DNA from: Bdellovibrio sp.
Lineage (GTDB): Bacteria; Myxococcota; SpSt-1050
NCBI GenBank assembly: GCA_020725805.1
Contig: DYEF01000101.1
Span: 1 to 6,892, forward strand
Length of the DNA stretch: 6,892 nucleotides
Reading direction: 5' to 3'
Shown here in pieces: positions 226 to 6,566 of this stretch. The translations under genes and the position numbers were made by a program. The notes under the pieces were generated by a model. It saw only the letters and a list, made by a program, of their open reading frames with translations. It searched no databases and had not been told where the DNA came from. Within the stretch, counting starts at the first letter, position 1; the number at the start of each line of letters is the position of its first letter.

Positions 226-241
226 AAGGCCTTATGGCCTT
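226..241 (+). other. Leader hairpin abutting the protease ribosome binding site
   Basis: AAGGCC (226-231) and GGCCTT (236-241) form a perfect 6-bp, GC-rich stem with a TTAT loop. The stem can be lengthened by two C-G pairs (222-223 with 242-243) across a 2-base bulge, which would cover the first bases of the GGGAGG Shine-Dalgarno sequence. If the promoter at 192-220 is right, the stem sits almost exactly at the 5' end of the mRNA. Possible roles are mRNA stabilisation or control of translation. It could instead be a palindromic end recognised by the neighbouring IS200-like transposase. The pairing is seen in the sequence; the role is inferred. Confidence 0.45.
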
Positions 242-247
242 GGGAGG
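242..247 (+). promoter_or_regulatory. Ribosome binding site that decides the protease start
   Basis: GGGAGG lies four bases before the ATG at 252, while the in-frame ATG at 234 lies upstream of this site, inside the hairpin loop. Starting at 252 also puts Met-Lys-Thr directly before the hydrophobic core of the signal peptide, which is the usual shape, so 252 is preferred. Confidence 0.6.
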
Positions 248-251
248 TTGT

Positions 252-2447
252 ATGAAAACCCTGATAGTATCTGTTTTAATTGTTTTGTTTTCAAATACAA
301 TTTATGCGGGTGGTCTTACCTTGAATGAATTGCAGAAAATTCTAAAGGAGACAAATGCCGGCTGGACTGCCGGTGAAAACAATATTACAAAACTGCCGGA
401 GGATGTGAAGAGGAGGCTGTTTGCCAATGAATTCAGAAGGACCGTAGATGGACCTGACGTCTTTAAGGGTGGACTTGGTGTAGTTCCTTCAAAATTCGAC
501 TGGAGAAATAAAGACGGCAAGAATTATGTTACACCTGTTAAGTATCAGGAGGATTGCGGTGCCTGCTGGGCATTCGCATCCGTTGGCGCAATTGAGTCCA
601 AATATCTTATTCAGACCCAGAAGGCGTTTAATAATCTGCTTGACCTCTCTGAGCAGATACTGGTTTCCTGTAACAGCTTCGGAGGCGGTTGTAACGGCGG
701 TTATCTGGATTCGGCAGCCAATTTTCTAAAAAACTCAGGTACGTACGATGAATCCTGCTATCCTTACAGGGCATCTGATTCTTCCTGCTCCTATGCCTGC
801 AAGTTCTACGGGACCTATGTCTATAAGATTTCATCATATCAGATGGTCAGTCAGTCTGTTACCGCTCTTAAGGAGGCAGTTTACAATTACGGACCAATTC
901 CGGTTGCAATGATGGTCTATGAGGATTTTGAGTATTATCAGAGCGGGGTTTATACACATAAGACAGGATCGCAGACAGGGGCACATGCGGTTCTTATTGT
1001 CGGATGGGATGATTCCCAGAGCTGTTTTATAGTCAAAAACTCTTTTTCAACTGCATGGGGCGAGAGCGGATATTTCAGAATTGCCTATTCCGAAGTGACC
1101 GGTTACAGTGATTTCGGATACTCTGCTGTTGCATACGGAAATGTAACTGCAACCAATTATGTGCAGACTATGCTTGCAACGGACCCGGGCGGGAAATCCA
1201 TCAAATTCGATGGTTACTCAATAACGACACCGGTGATATACAGTCTGCCCTCCGGTTCTTCTCATACGGTAAGCATCAATAATGTTTTTACGGAATCTGA
1301 TGGTAAGACAAGATATTTGTTTGATAGCAGGTCTGACGGGAAAGGTATAAATGACAATGTCGTAATTCCTTCCACAGACTCTTCGATACTCTGGAGTTAC
1401 AAGCTGCAGTATCTCTTCAAGACATCAGTAAATAATTCTGCCTATGGGAGGGTTGAGCCGGACTGTTCTTCGGGCTGCTGGAATGATTACTGGACGAGTG
1501 TTACCTTCTCCGCACTTCCCAATACGGGTTATCAGTTTAAAAACTGGAGTGGCGATATTCAGAGTTCAACAAATCCTCTAAAGTTTACAGTAATGGAGCC
1601 GTTGTCAATTACTGCCAATTTTGACAAGGCGACCGTTAAAACATATACAATTACCGCATCGGCAGGTCCAAACGGAAAGATTACTCCTTCAGGGAATATA
1701 AATGTGCCGGAGAAGGGTTCGCAGGCATTTGATATTACCCCCGACAACGGATATTCGGTCGAGGATGTACTTGTTGACAATCAGACAGTAGGGGCAGTAA
1801 CGAAGTATGTGTTCAGTAACGTAACGGCAAACCATACCATTTATGCAAAGTTTGTTTCGAATACGATTCCTACATATACGATAATCGCTTCGGCATCAGA
1901 GGGGGGGAGAATTCAGCCCGAAGGTTCGATCGTTGTGAGAAGGGGTGCATCTCAGACATTTACAATGATTCCTGACAGCGGCTACATAATCGACAACGTT
2001 ATAGTGGATGGGAATTCTGTCGGGGCAGTAAGCAATTATACATTCAGTAACGTCTCTGCAAATCACGGTATATCCGCAATATTCAAGAAGCAGAGCCAGA
2101 ATAAGGAGTATGTTAAGCTCTCGGTTAAATATTCGGGCGGCGGAGAGGGGGGTGTAGTCAGTAATCCGGCAGGACTCAACTGCAGTGGCGATTGTTCGGG
2201 ATGGTTTGTAAAAGGCAGTACGGTTCAGCTGATCGCAAATCCCAGATCTTCGAGCACATTTGAGGGATGGAATATCGGCAGTTGCGGAAAGAGTCAGGCC
2301 TGCAATATTGTTATGAATTACGATACACCGGTTACTGTATACTTTAAATTGAAGGACGGCGAAAATCCGGACGGGAATACTGACGAAGAGGCACTTCAGG
2401 AGTCCATCAAATCAGCATCAGGTTGTAGCTGCAGTTATATTGATTGA
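252..2447 (+). CDS. Secreted papain-family (C1A) cysteine protease with C-terminal InlB-type repeats
   Basis: The protein is 731 residues. Residues 1-19 are a Sec signal peptide (hydrophobic core 4-13, probable cut after Tyr-Ala19). Residues 22-62 resemble the short C1A propeptide, with the N-A-G-W-T-A-G-E pattern around Trp38. The papain domain begins at about 78 (PSKFDWR) and ends near 296. Its oxyanion-hole Gln99, nucleophile Cys105 (in C-G-A-C-W-A-F), His245 (G-A-H-A-V) and Asn263 (K-N-S, followed by W-G) are all present, so it should be active. C-N-G-G and paired cysteines suggest disulfides, hence function outside the cytoplasm. Residues 297-698 are beta modules of the divergent InlB B-repeat kind. 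The first is degenerate, the second carries W-S-G-D at 432-435, two are near-copies (465-534, 542-611), and the last is Cys-rich (620-698). Such tails usually serve surface display or binding. The chain ends abruptly with a G-C-S-C motif (Cys725, Cys727). An upstream in-frame ATG at 234 would add six residues. The substrate is unknown. Confidence 0.93.
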   Translation: MKTLIVSVLIVLFSNTIYAGGLTLNELQKILKETNAGWTAGENNITKLPEDVKRRLFANEFRRTVDGPDVFKGGLGVVPSKFDWRNKDGKNYVTPVKYQEDCGACWAFASVGAIESKYLIQTQKAFNNLLDLSEQILVSCNSFGGGCNGGYLDSAANFLKNSGTYDESCYPYRASDSSCSYACKFYGTYVYKISSYQMVSQSVTALKEAVYNYGPIPVAMMVYEDFEYYQSGVYTHKTGSQTGAHAVLIVGWDDSQSCFIVKNSFSTAWGESGYFRIAYSEVTGYSDFGYSAVAYGNVTATNYVQTMLATDPGGKSIKFDGYSITTPVIYSLPSGSSHTVSINNVFTESDGKTRYLFDSRSDGKGINDNVVIPSTDSSILWSYKLQYLFKTSVNNSAYGRVEPDCSSGCWNDYWTSVTFSALPNTGYQFKNWSGDIQSSTNPLKFTVMEPLSITANFDKATVKTYTITASAGPNGKITPSGNINVPEKGSQAFDITPDNGYSVEDVLVDNQTVGAVTKYVFSNVTANHTIYAKFVSNTIPTYTIIASASEGGRIQPEGSIVVRRGASQTFTMIPDSGYIIDNVIVDGNSVGAVSNYTFSNVSANHGISAIFKKQSQNKEYVKLSVKYSGGGEGGVVSNPAGLNCSGDCSGWFVKGSTVQLIANPRSSSTFEGWNIGSCGKSQACNIVMNYDTPVTVYFKLKDGENPDGNTDEEALQESIKSASGCSCSYID
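1644..2084 (+). repeat. Two tandem 70-residue beta repeats inside the protease
   Basis: Codons 1644-1853 and 1875-2084 encode two modules of exactly 70 residues joined by a 7-residue linker. By eye 37 of 70 positions are identical, including the shared D-x-G-Y, V-G-A-V and F-S-N-V-[TS]-A-N-H motifs. This is a common bacterial extracellular repeat related to the divergent InlB B-repeat. The DNA copies have drifted, so the duplication is old. Confidence 0.85.
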
Positions 2448-2688: not shown

Positions 2689-4752
2689 TTATCTTGAAAA
2701 GAGACCCTTCAGCCAGCTCATAAATCCGTTCTTTTTAGGGCCTTTTTCAGTTCTTGTATCGGTTTTGTCTGATTTTCTGGGAGGCCCGGCATCTCCCGGT
2801 GAATCTTCTAATCTGACTTTGATAAGATCCTTGCGGTTTGTAAAGTTGATAAATCTTACGGGGAGACTCTCTCCGCTCTCAAGGTCGACTGCCTGTATCT
2901 TAAAGATTGATTCCGGGTCAACCGAAAATTTTACGTTTATGCGGGCCTTGCCTTTGGGGACCTGAGGAATATTGAATATGGTAAGTTCGCCTACGATCTC
3001 GTTTGCCTCGATGAAAGGGGATTCTCCCTGATAGATGCCGAGTGTCATCTCCTTTACGAAATCGGCGGGGTTCAAAAGAGTTATCGAACGCTCTGTGGGG
3101 AGCTGTGAATTACGCGGAATTACCTTCAGGTATTTTTTGCCGTCAAGTGATATCCCTACCGACATCGGAAGGACATCAATGAGCAGCACGTTTTCGTTTT
3201 TCAGTATCGAGTCTGCCAGAAGTGCTGCACCAATACCTACTGCCTCATCCGGATGAACTCCCTTATGAGGTTCTTTACCAAAGTATTCCACAATCTTCTT
3301 TTTGACAAGAGGCATCCGGCTCTGGCCGCCAACAAGGAGTATCTCGTCGATACTCTTTATGTCGATATTCTTTGCGTTGAGTACCTCTTCACAGACTATA
3401 ATCGTCCTGTCCACAAGGTCTGATGTCAGCTCTTCTACCTTCTGACGGGTTATCGATTGTCTTATGTCTACTGCCTTTCCGTTTATAAGAGAAACAAACG
3501 GGATATGGACCGCCTTTTCCTGTGCCGAGGATAGTTCTATTTTTGCGTTTTCTGCCGCAAATAAGAGCCTCTGCATTATCACCATATCTTTTGAGAGGTC
3601 TACTCCGTATTGCTTATTGAATTCGTCTACTATGTAGTTGACAATACGGTTGTCAAAATCGACACCACCCAAAAATGTATCACCACCTGTAGAGAGGACC
3701 TCGAAGACATTGTCGTGAATATCCATAATTGAAACGTCGAAAGTGCCGCCGCCGAGGTCATAGACCATTATCCTCTTCTTCATCCCTTTATAGAAGCCAA
3801 ACGCTATTGCAGCCGCGGTTGGTTCATTCAGTATCCGCTCCACTTCCAGTCCGGCGAGTCTTCCGGCCTCTTTGACCGCCTGCCTCTGGGATTCATTGTA
3901 ATATGCAGGAACCGTTATGACAGCGCGGTTTACCTCTTCCGCAAAATATGTCTCTGCAATCTCCTTGAGTTCTTTCAGGATGAAGGAGGATATCTCCTCA
4001 AGCGTAAATTTTGTGTCCGCGATACTGACGATACAGTTTTCATTTTCCCCTTCCAGAATTTCGTATGAGAATCTGCTCTTTATGTCCTGTACTATTTTGG
4101 ATTTGTATTTTCTGCCAATAAGTCTCTTTGCACCGTAGACAGTGTTTCTTGGATTGATAAGAAGCTGCTCCCGCGCAGGGTTGCCAACTAGTAATTTACC
4201 TTTTTCATTGATTGCAACAATGGACGGGACAGTCCTGTATCCCTGCCTCGAAGGAATGACAACAGGTTTATTGTTTACCACAGTTGAAACGCAGGAGAAT
4301 GTTGTACCTAAGTCGATTCCGATTATCTTGCGTGATTTTTTTATTGCCGGGGTCTCTGCCGGTTTGGATGGTTCTATGTCTCTCCCTTCCTTATATTCCT
4401 TTATTGCTCCCGACCTCTCGATTTCCTGTGCGACAATCTCCTCTATAAGACGGGCTGCCTGCGGAGAAAGTTTTGTAAATCTGATACCGCATCCGTGTTC
4501 CTTTTTGTCGTCGCTTTCCGTCTTCTTCCATACAACTGTCCCTTCGCCCGAGAAGAGAATTTCTCCTGTATTCTTCAGTATCTCGAATTTTATTGTCTGT
4601 CCGACTTCCGGCGGGTTATGTGTATGAACAAAGCATCCGCCCTTCGAAATATTTACCGCAAAATCCTTTTTTACGTCAGTAGAATCAGTACTTAGCCTTA
4701 TCAGAAGGGGATATTTTACTCTTTCATCCTTTCGTCTGTTTGAATAATCCAT
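2689..4752 (-). CDS. PilZ-Hsp70 fusion: putative c-di-GMP-binding, lidless DnaK-like chaperone
   Basis: The protein is 687 residues. Residues 5-115 form a PilZ domain of the type expanded in Myxococcus and relatives. Both c-di-GMP motifs are present: R-x-x-x-R (Arg7, Arg11) and N-x-S-x-x-G (Asn34, Ser36, Gly39). A charged linker (116-140) leads to an Hsp70 ATPase domain: I-G-I-D-L-G-T-T at 144-151, Lys209, N-E-P-T-A-A-A at 309-315, D-L-G-G-G-T-F-D at 332-339 (Thr337 equals DnaK Thr199), and the adenosine motif L-L-V-G-G-Q-S-R-M-P at 472-481. The hydrophobic interdomain linker V-L-L-I-D-V is at 522-527, followed by a beta substrate-binding domain to about 648. The alpha-helical lid is absent. 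In its place are a Pro/Lys/Asp-rich stretch and a terminal segment with Trp680, Leu681, Leu684 and Phe685 that could form an amphipathic helix. No signal peptide or membrane segment, so probably cytoplasmic. It lies eight bases after rph with no Shine-Dalgarno sequence, which suggests translational coupling. The start is fixed by the PilZ N-terminus. Function as a c-di-GMP-tuned chaperone is inferred. Confidence 0.93.
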   Translation of the reverse strand: MDYSNRRKDERVKYPLLIRLSTDSTDVKKDFAVNISKGGCFVHTHNPPEVGQTIKFEILKNTGEILFSGEGTVVWKKTESDDKKEHGCGIRFTKLSPQAARLIEEIVAQEIERSGAIKEYKEGRDIEPSKPAETPAIKKSRKIIGIDLGTTFSCVSTVVNNKPVVIPSRQGYRTVPSIVAINEKGKLLVGNPAREQLLINPRNTVYGAKRLIGRKYKSKIVQDIKSRFSYEILEGENENCIVSIADTKFTLEEISSFILKELKEIAETYFAEEVNRAVITVPAYYNESQRQAVKEAGRLAGLEVERILNEPTAAAIAFGFYKGMKKRIMVYDLGGGTFDVSIMDIHDNVFEVLSTGGDTFLGGVDFDNRIVNYIVDEFNKQYGVDLSKDMVIMQRLLFAAENAKIELSSAQEKAVHIPFVSLINGKAVDIRQSITRQKVEELTSDLVDRTIIVCEEVLNAKNIDIKSIDEILLVGGQSRMPLVKKKIVEYFGKEPHKGVHPDEAVGIGAALLADSILKNENVLLIDVLPMSVGISLDGKKYLKVIPRNSQLPTERSITLLNPADFVKEMTLGIYQGESPFIEANEIVGELTIFNIPQVPKGKARINVKFSVDPESIFKIQAVDLESGESLPVRFINFTNRKDLIKVRLEDSPGDAGPPRKSDKTDTRTEKGPKKNGFMSWLKGLFSR

Positions 4753-4760
4753 ATAATCAA

Positions 4761-5468
4761 CTAAATAAGAAAACCTTTTTGCATTTTTATTATACCCAGA
4801 ATTCCTTTCTGGGCAAGTAAAAAGAGTCTGTCGAACTCATCTTTTGTAATTGCCCTCTTTTCTGACGTGCACTGAAGTTCGACAATCTTCAGGTTTTCTG
4901 TCATAACCAGATTCAGGTCGAGCTCTGCATTCGAATCTTCGTAATAATTGAGGTCGAGAAGTGGTTCGCCGTTTACTATACCCGCGGATACGGCAGCGAC
5001 CTGCTCTTTTATTGGCATTGAAGGTATCACTCCCATATTGTAGAGTCTCTTGAGTGCGTGCTGGACGGCAATGAAGGCGCCCGTAATTGCACAGGTGCGT
5101 GTACCACCGTCTGCCTGCAGGACATCGCAGTCGATAATTATGGATTTGTCTTTTAGTGAAACAAGGTCGGTTACTGCACGGATCGACCTTCCGATAAGCC
5201 TCTGGATTTCGTGAGTTCTTCCTGATTTCAGTACAGAATCGCGCGGCGAACGTTTCTGATTTGCCCTTGGAAGCATATTGTATTCGGCTGTAATCCAGCC
5301 CGAGTCCTTTCCGGTCAGCCATTGCGGAAGTTTCTCTTCGAGTGAAACAGTTATCAGGACTCGTGTATCACCAAAGGAGATGATAAGTGAACCCTCTGCA
5401 TATTTGTTGATATCTGTTTCGATCTCTATCTTTCTTAGCTGGTCATTTGCCCTTGCATCTATTCTCAT
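4761..5468 (-). CDS. rph: Ribonuclease PH
   Basis: RNase PH is a phosphate-dependent 3'-to-5' exoribonuclease that trims tRNA 3' ends and also acts on rRNA; it normally forms a hexamer ring in the cytoplasm. At 235 residues this is the usual length. The family start R-x-D-x-R-x-N-D-Q-L-R is present. Phosphate is bound by Arg84 (S-G-R-T-x-E-I-Q-R-L-I-G-R) and by G-G-T-R-T at 121-125. The catalytic acidic residues Asp178 and Asp184 stand in E-D-S-N-A-E-L-D. Toward the C-terminus the usual Q-G-T-A-E-G is Q-C-T-S-E-K (199-204), a mild departure outside the active site. It follows ychF by nine bases, and its Shine-Dalgarno sequence overlaps the ychF stop codon. In many genomes rph precedes the rdgB/ham1 pyrophosphatase gene; here that place is taken by pilZ-dnaK. 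Full-length and apparently functional. Confidence 0.96.
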   Translation of the reverse strand: MRIDARANDQLRKIEIETDINKYAEGSLIISFGDTRVLITVSLEEKLPQWLTGKDSGWITAEYNMLPRANQKRSPRDSVLKSGRTHEIQRLIGRSIRAVTDLVSLKDKSIIIDCDVLQADGGTRTCAITGAFIAVQHALKRLYNMGVIPSMPIKEQVAAVSAGIVNGEPLLDLNYYEDSNAELDLNLVMTENLKIVELQCTSEKRAITKDEFDRLFLLAQKGILGIIKMQKGFLI

Positions 5469-5474
5469 CTGAAA

Positions 5475-5479
5475 CTCCT
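5475..5479 (-). promoter_or_regulatory. rph ribosome binding site overlapping the ychF stop
   Basis: AGGAG on the minus strand ends six bases before the rph ATG (5468-5466) and shares two bases with the ychF TAG stop (5480-5478). Ribosomes finishing ychF therefore end on the site used to start rph. Confidence 0.75.
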
Positions 5480-6566
5480 ATACATTGAATCTGATGCGTA
5501 TTATATCTCCGTCCTGTACGACATAGTCTCTTCCAACAATAAGTATTCTTCCCTTTTTTGCCGCACCTTCCTCCCCGTGACAATCCATAAAATCGTAGTA
5601 ATGAATTACCTCTCCTTTGATAAATCCCTTTGCCATATCCGAATGTATCTTTGCTGCCGCATCAATAATTTTGCTGCCGGCTCTTATGGACCATGCCCTT
5701 GTTTCGGTACCGACTACTGTATAGAATGTCAGAAGGTCAAGAATTTCATAACCTGTTTTGATGATCTTCGATAGTGCACTTTCCTCGAATCCTGCCTCAC
5801 GCAACATCTGAATCTTTTCCTTTTCGTCAAACTCGAGAAGGTCGGCCTCAAACCTGCATGCGATTTTTACATATTTTGCGTTATTACGGCTTATGAAGTT
5901 TTCGAATGAAGATATAACCGACTGATTCTGTTTTGAATCCGAAATATTCAGCACATAAAACATTGGTTTGATAGTTAAAAGAAAGGACTGCCGGGCATAT
6001 TGTTTTATCTCTTTCGGAAGTTTCGAATCTGCAAGAAGGATTCCTTCGCTGAGGCACTTTTCTATCTCATTAAGCATCTCCATTTCGTGAGTGGCCTCTT
6101 TCTCACCGGTTTTAGCGGCATTCCTGACTTTCTCGATTCTGCGGTTTATTGTTTCAAGGTCTGCGAGTATAAGTTCGGTATTGATTATTTCGGCATCTCT
6201 TACCGGATCGGTATCAGGATTTACATTTACTATTCTGTCATCTTCAAAACCTCTTACAATGTGACATATGGCATCGACTTCTCTGATGTGGGAGAGAAAT
6301 TTATTGCCGAGACCTTCTCCCTTTGAGGCCCCTTTTACAAGTCCGGCAATATCTACAAATTCAAGTGTGTTATATGTGATTTTTTCGGGTTTCAGTAATC
6401 TGGTAATATTCTTCAGCCTTTCATCAGGGACAGTTACAATCCCTACGTTTGGTTCTACCGTGCAAAACGGATAATTTTCTGCCGGTACATTGCTTTTGGT
6501 AAGGGCATTGAACAGAGTCGATTTTCCCACATTTGGCAATCCTACTATTCCGCATCTGAAACCCAT
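5478..6566 (-). CDS. ychF: Obg-family ribosome-associated ATPase YchF (bacterial OLA1)
   Basis: YchF is a universally conserved P-loop ATPase of the Obg group that binds ribosomes and affects translation initiation and oxidative-stress responses. At 362 residues it matches E. coli YchF (363). It starts with the family's M-G-F-x-C-G-I-V-G. Walker A is G-L-P-N-V-G-K-S (9-16), the G2 region F-C-T-V-E-P-N is at 34-40, and G3 is D-I-A-G-L-V-K-G-A-S (72-81). A helical insertion covers about 130-195. G4 reads N-I-S-D (207-210), where YchF usually has N-x-x-E, the feature credited with its ATP preference. The TGS domain fills about 278-362 and ends F-N-V. Aligned without gaps to E. coli, position 114 is Asn (codon 6227-6225) where E. 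coli has the His implicated in hydrolysis. It is the first gene of the operon with rph and pilZ-dnaK, and has its own promoter and strong Shine-Dalgarno sequence. Confidence 0.97.
   Translation of the reverse strand: MGFRCGIVGLPNVGKSTLFNALTKSNVPAENYPFCTVEPNVGIVTVPDERLKNITRLLKPEKITYNTLEFVDIAGLVKGASKGEGLGNKFLSHIREVDAICHIVRGFEDDRIVNVNPDTDPVRDAEIINTELILADLETINRRIEKVRNAAKTGEKEATHEMEMLNEIEKCLSEGILLADSKLPKEIKQYARQSFLLTIKPMFYVLNISDSKQNQSVISSFENFISRNNAKYVKIACRFEADLLEFDEKEKIQMLREAGFEESALSKIIKTGYEILDLLTFYTVVGTETRAWSIRAGSKIIDAAAKIHSDMAKGFIKGEVIHYYDFMDCHGEEGAAKKGRILIVGRDYVVQDGDIIRIRFNV

Follow-up and report, generated by a model that had tools for sequence, protein, structure and literature searches.

Of the 15 DnaK proteins of Myxococcus xanthus, two, CsdK1 (Mxan_3778) and CsdK2 (Mxan_6605), are PilZ-DnaK fusions acting as chaperones for the PilZ protein CdbS, which they stabilise; they redundantly raise its level on depletion of CdbA and at 37 degrees, speeding cell death (PMC10313047). 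According to the genetic and two-hybrid data, CdbS contacts the DnaK part and not the PilZ domain; the PilZ domain of CsdK2 alone did not bind CdbS, and the PilZ-motif mutation R38A left the interaction unaffected (PMC10313047). The first half of the c-di-GMP motif is missing from CsdK1; in CsdK2 the motif is complete, and the authors write that this protein "might" bind c-di-GMP (PMC10313047). An earlier paper had already pointed out DnaK or DnaJ domains in four PilZ proteins of this species (PMC8316039). An earlier note on the present DNA, which was not aware of any characterised example of such a fusion, is corrected by these findings. That note had also proposed flagellar, pilus, or exopolysaccharide components as clients, against which it speaks, in M. 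xanthus, that motility, exopolysaccharide synthesis, and development do not require CsdK1 and CsdK2 (PMC10313047).

The window analysed here, a stretch of 6,892 bases that makes up an entire contig of a Myxococcota genome (3.29 Mb, 98% complete), encodes another member of the PilZ-DnaK proteins, which are widespread in myxobacteria. In agreement with the definition of the CsdK proteins (PMC10313047), an N-terminal PilZ domain and the NBD, linker, and substrate-binding domain (SBD) of DnaK are combined in one protein.

Architecture and conservation of the fusion

The PilZ-Hsp70 fusion described in the earlier note was confirmed at the coordinates given there, in a single frame on the minus strand (Table 1). 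The match to PF07238 extends over the full profile (positions 1–102; 57.5 bits, with a cut-off of 22.5), and that to PF00012 over residues 143–630 (E, 4.1e-168; 560.8 bits); the TIGR02266 match (61.0 bits) is under its cut-off of 68.7. Both halves of the c-di-GMP motif are kept, exactly as had been claimed. The ATPase and beta substrate-binding domains, said to be complete, are both present, but of the SBD only the beta part is complete, the alpha-helical lid being absent.

Table 1. Features of the pilZ-dnaK gene and its neighbours in the window
Feature	Position	Strand	Evidence or remark
pilZ-dnaK gene, 687 aa	2689..4752	-	ATG start, single uninterrupted frame
PilZ domain, residues 5–109	4426..4740	-	PF07238 E 1.9e-15, genome search, motif table
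RxxxR (R7..R11) and NxSxxG (N34/S36/G39)	within PilZ domain	-	both halves intact
PilZ-NBD interdomain linker, residues ~110–139, poorly conserved	4336..4425	-	50% identity to congener
Hsp70 NBD, residues 140–517, DnaK type	3202..4335	-	ATPase and J-protein-site residues intact
Hsp70 interdomain linker VLLIDV, residues 522–527, conserved	3172..3189	-	alignment with E. coli DnaK VLLLDV
SBD-beta, residues 526–634, without SBD-alpha lid after it	2851..3177	-	HSP70 profile end, C-terminal lengths
C-terminal linker, residues 647–673, unconstrained	2734..2814	-	4% identity to congener, pN 0.63
Amphipathic basic C-terminal tail, residues 674–687, KNGFMSWLKGLFSR, conserved	2692..2733	-	57% identity, dN/dS ~0.15; recurrence in most relatives
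Stop codon of pilZ-dnaK	2689-2691	-	
rph, ribonuclease PH	4761..5468	-	TIGR01966 E 2.3e-94; same order in congener
ychF GTPase/ATPase	5478..6566	-	TIGR00092 E 1.8e-128; same order in congener

An orthologue with 83% identity, the same length (687 aa), domain order, and start, and the same flanking genes, is encoded in a congener, a "Deltaproteobacteria bacterium" MAG of the same genus, which the NCBI ranks place in Myxococcota; the gene order ychF-rph-pilZ-dnaK is common to both genomes. Identity to the congener amounts to 77% in the PilZ domain and 92% in the NBD, and pN to 0.15 in the PilZ domain, 0.05 in the NBD, 0.08 in SBD-beta, and 0.22 in the tail. Synonymous sites are saturated between the two genes while replacement sites are constrained, showing purifying selection. 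Together with the conserved order and the high identity of the orthologue, this indicates that the join is genuine and selected; the fusion is old and real.

The rph gene lies upstream in the same direction, separated from the fusion gene by 8 bases, and ychF is probably the first gene of an operon with rph and pilZ-dnaK. We considered this operon as a clue to function and set it aside; because ychF and rph adjoin the fusion only in the window's genus among the loci compared, it carries little functional information. No RNA or tRNA elements were found in the window, and a promoter scan gave no more matches than expected by chance. Convergent to the fusion gene, and kept there in the congener, is a gene (234-2447, plus strand) whose product is a secreted cysteine protease of the papain family (PF00112) that carries three InlB B-repeat-like domains (PF18998).

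Hsp70 half, missing lid, and C-terminal tail

The alignment with E. coli DnaK covers the ATPase, linker, and SBD-beta over residues 142–664 (453 bits). The DnaK residues K70, P143, R151, R167, N170, E171, and T199 correspond to K209, P282, R290, R306, N309, E310, and T337 of the window protein, respectively, and the linker residue D393 to D526 within VLLIDV; these positions, the proline switch and the J-protein and linker sites among them, are assigned to catalysis and allostery by established work. Such residues are mostly invariant across 16 sequences, in all of which V522, L524, D526, and V527 of the linker are conserved. The protein thus has the features of the Hsp70 superfamily, namely an actin-like ATPase with phosphate and catalytic motifs, a VLLxDV linker, and SBD-beta. 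J-domain proteins and GrpE are also encoded in the window genome, and in view of the intact J-protein and linker residues, ordinary control by J-proteins and exchange factors is probably kept; c-di-GMP would add to this control rather than replace it. At the position of DnaK V436, within the substrate pocket, the same alignment places a bulkier residue (M569), which could narrow the clientele.

The match to the HSP70 profile ends at position 492 of 599, and only 58 residues (linker and tail) follow the core, versus 114–151 in those Myxococcota DnaKs that have a lid. As judged from the end of the match and these lengths, the window protein is without the SBD-alpha lid. It scores under every NCBIfam DnaK equivalog cut-off, including those of TIGR02350/NF001413 (561.5 versus 822.55 and 583.3 versus 648). 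The absence of the lid excludes it from canonical DnaK, but not from the Hsp70 superfamily, the ATPase and SBD-beta being present. In E. coli DnaK the alpha lid is present and PilZ absent, the reverse of the window protein.

After the unconstrained linker, the C-terminus is formed by a conserved helix, basic and amphipathic (GFMSWLKGLFSR). The last 14 residues (KNGFMSWLKGLFSR, aligned with KKGFINWLRKLFSK of the congener) have been conserved beside a linker that has drifted (Table 1), and relatives have similar C-terminal ends (GFMGWLKGLFGRA, GLLGKLFGRKK, FWGKLKKVLGRGK, and GLRGLLSRLFGR). By a simple rule, such a tail was detected in 61 of 73 fusions and in 25 of 33 lidless Hsp70s without PilZ; as controls, 8% of random internal stretches of the fusions passed and stretches of the C-terminal linker never did, and the 4 of 17 lidded DnaKs that passed did so through the lid helix. 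The tail therefore accompanies the loss of the lid and not the presence of PilZ. A structure prediction from two sequences (pLDDT, 34) gave weak support for a helix at residues 674–686, and was otherwise uninformative. Amphipathic helices that target proteins to the membrane, for example the one in FtsA, are similar to the tail, a likeness that we treat as a lead only. The tail would probably dock the protein to the membrane or to a partner. Neither "lid" nor "amphipathic" occurs in the main text of the 2023 paper (PMC10313047), and the missing lid and the conserved C-terminal helix are the less-described parts of these proteins.

Relatives in Myxococcota

A protein match at E <=1e-145 was found in 136 of 193 Myxococcota genomes, a count that reflects similarity in Hsp70 and not the fusion. 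The loci retrieved from Myxococcota contain 73 distinct PilZ-Hsp70 fusions, a set biased to top matches and heavily to family f9, of which 25, including the window protein, have both half-motifs, 8 only the second, and 40 neither in complete form; several of the degenerate PilZ matches score marginally. With both halves lacking in 40 of the 73, the architecture in general does not depend on the binding of c-di-GMP. The reservation of the earlier note that the motifs might be generally degenerate in homologues is half justified: they are degenerate in one large lineage, and intact in several others, that of the window protein among them. RxxxR has been lost in the CsdK1-like clade of f9, and fusions with the complete motif are present in the genus of the window, in an f5 clade of 11, in most of f13, and among the long CsdK2-like f9 proteins.

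The window protein resembles CsdK2 in having an N-terminal PilZ domain with the full motif fused to the NBD and SBD of DnaK. Two CsdK2-like proteins (L082 and L084), matched to CsdK2 by length and motif, are also without a lid and have a basic amphipathic tail. However, CsdK2 is ~1146 aa long with a very long linker, whereas the window protein has a linker of ~30 residues, and the CsdK2-like proteins and the window protein take different positions in the Hsp70 tree. The CsdK1-like f9 copies (L019 and L021, matched to CsdK1 by description and not by sequence) are ~50% identical to the window protein across the Hsp70 part, their tails being SLMGWLKGLFGRA or GFMGWLKGLFGRA; unlike CsdK1, the window protein keeps RxxxR.

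In the Hsp70 tree, built by a quick method, the lidded DnaKs lie close together, and the window protein is located away from them among lidless myxobacterial DnaKs, many of which are PilZ-fused. At least 7 changes of the PilZ label are required on this tree, in which the window branch is not fixed relative to the f5/f9/f13 clade; it is possible that one ancient fusion was followed by losses, or that several fusions occurred, both being compatible with the tree. A tree of PilZ alone holds too little signal. A lidless Hsp70 paralogue in the window genome (L014:1444-2988, minus strand; 51% identical, without PilZ or tail) groups with the window protein on a long branch.

A second, distant PilZ-Hsp70 architecture was found at L091, L092, L093, and L094 (f12, f15, f20), in which RxxxR is lost, NLSxGG is kept, and the protein ends right after SBD-beta without a tail. 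In f5 genomes, a conserved, apparently secreted protein of ~210 aa is encoded directly downstream of pilZ-dnaK (L099:9457-10086, plus strand; also L023, L024, L026, L028, L029, L030, L051, and L053). It contains VEVYLNGVxITGAxDQVIDKAKVxLDKNGNVHISAPDYKVREVG and has no Pfam match, and is possibly a partner or client of PilZ-DnaK.

Possible roles of the PilZ domain and c-di-GMP

We consider it rather probable that the window protein is a CsdK-type PilZ-DnaK, in which an ATP-driven lidless Hsp70 would be tuned in activity or location by c-di-GMP bound to PilZ, and docked by its tail. Served by a J-protein and GrpE, the chaperone would bind a few dedicated clients in its lidless pocket and release them quickly, thereby holding or stabilising them, as proposed for CsdK1 and CsdK2 on CdbS. 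Binding of c-di-GMP to PilZ would change the activity or the location of the chaperone, and the tail would hold it at the membrane or on a partner. The intact motif and the 13 GGDEF matches in the genome, together with its J-domain and GrpE genes, are consistent with this scheme, as are the pattern of selection, the place of the protein among lidless DnaKs in the Hsp70 tree, and the M. xanthus data on CsdK1 and CsdK2; the interpretation of the earlier note is partly supported, although characterised homologues exist. Against the scheme, some or all of the motif has been lost from 48 of the 73 fusions, so that the architecture can work without it, R38A in CsdK2 did not affect the interaction with CdbS (PMC10313047), and the Hsp70 part is only ~50% identical to that of the CsdK1-like group. 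Our search turned up no measurement of c-di-GMP binding by a PilZ-DnaK. A candidate for a CdbS-like client, as suggested by sequence, is a stand-alone PilZ protein of the window genome (L007:1468-1863, plus strand; 131 aa, full motif, 93 bits against the fusion-family profile), whose gene is followed by one for a rhomboid-like membrane protein.

It is less likely, if well worth weighing, that PilZ is a targeting or scaffold module for protein-protein contact, in which c-di-GMP plays no regulatory part despite the intact motif. The many PilZ domains that remain fused after losing one or both half-motifs, and the CsdK2–CdbS contact that survived mutation of the PilZ motif (PMC10313047), point in this direction. 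On the other hand, the retention of both half-motifs in the window protein, its congener, the f5 clade, most of f13, and the CsdK2-like proteins is more than drift would leave, and the failure of the isolated CsdK2 PilZ domain to bind CdbS also argues against a scaffold.

Direct gating of the Hsp70 ATPase or of client binding by c-di-GMP through PilZ seems improbable. The covalent fusion, the intact motif, the constraint on PilZ, and the presence of GGDEF proteins would fit such gating, but the PilZ-NBD linker, ~30 aa here and ~100 or more in many f5 relatives, varies so widely in length and sequence that a fixed allosteric interface is not suggested. In CsdK2, the only case tested, the client was bound whether or not the PilZ motif was intact (PMC10313047), which does not favour client binding among the functions that the earlier note would place under c-di-GMP; of all the steps proposed, direct gating of client binding has the least support. 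That two genes were joined by a sequencing or assembly error can be dismissed, as nothing was found in favour of this, the congener has the same fusion, and dozens of related genomes share the architecture.

Returning to the CsdK-type reading, we extend it only tentatively to a Myxococcota-wide family of membrane- or partner-tethered lidless Hsp70s, in which a C-terminal amphipathic anchor may have replaced the lid, and PilZ may make activity or position dependent on c-di-GMP. The loss of the lid and the conserved tail add a testable part beyond the main text of PMC10313047. The window protein is compact, with short linkers and the complete motif, and so lends itself to experiments on the action of c-di-GMP. 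If c-di-GMP does act on an Hsp70, the signalling that governs bacterial lifestyle would have a direct hold on protein quality control.
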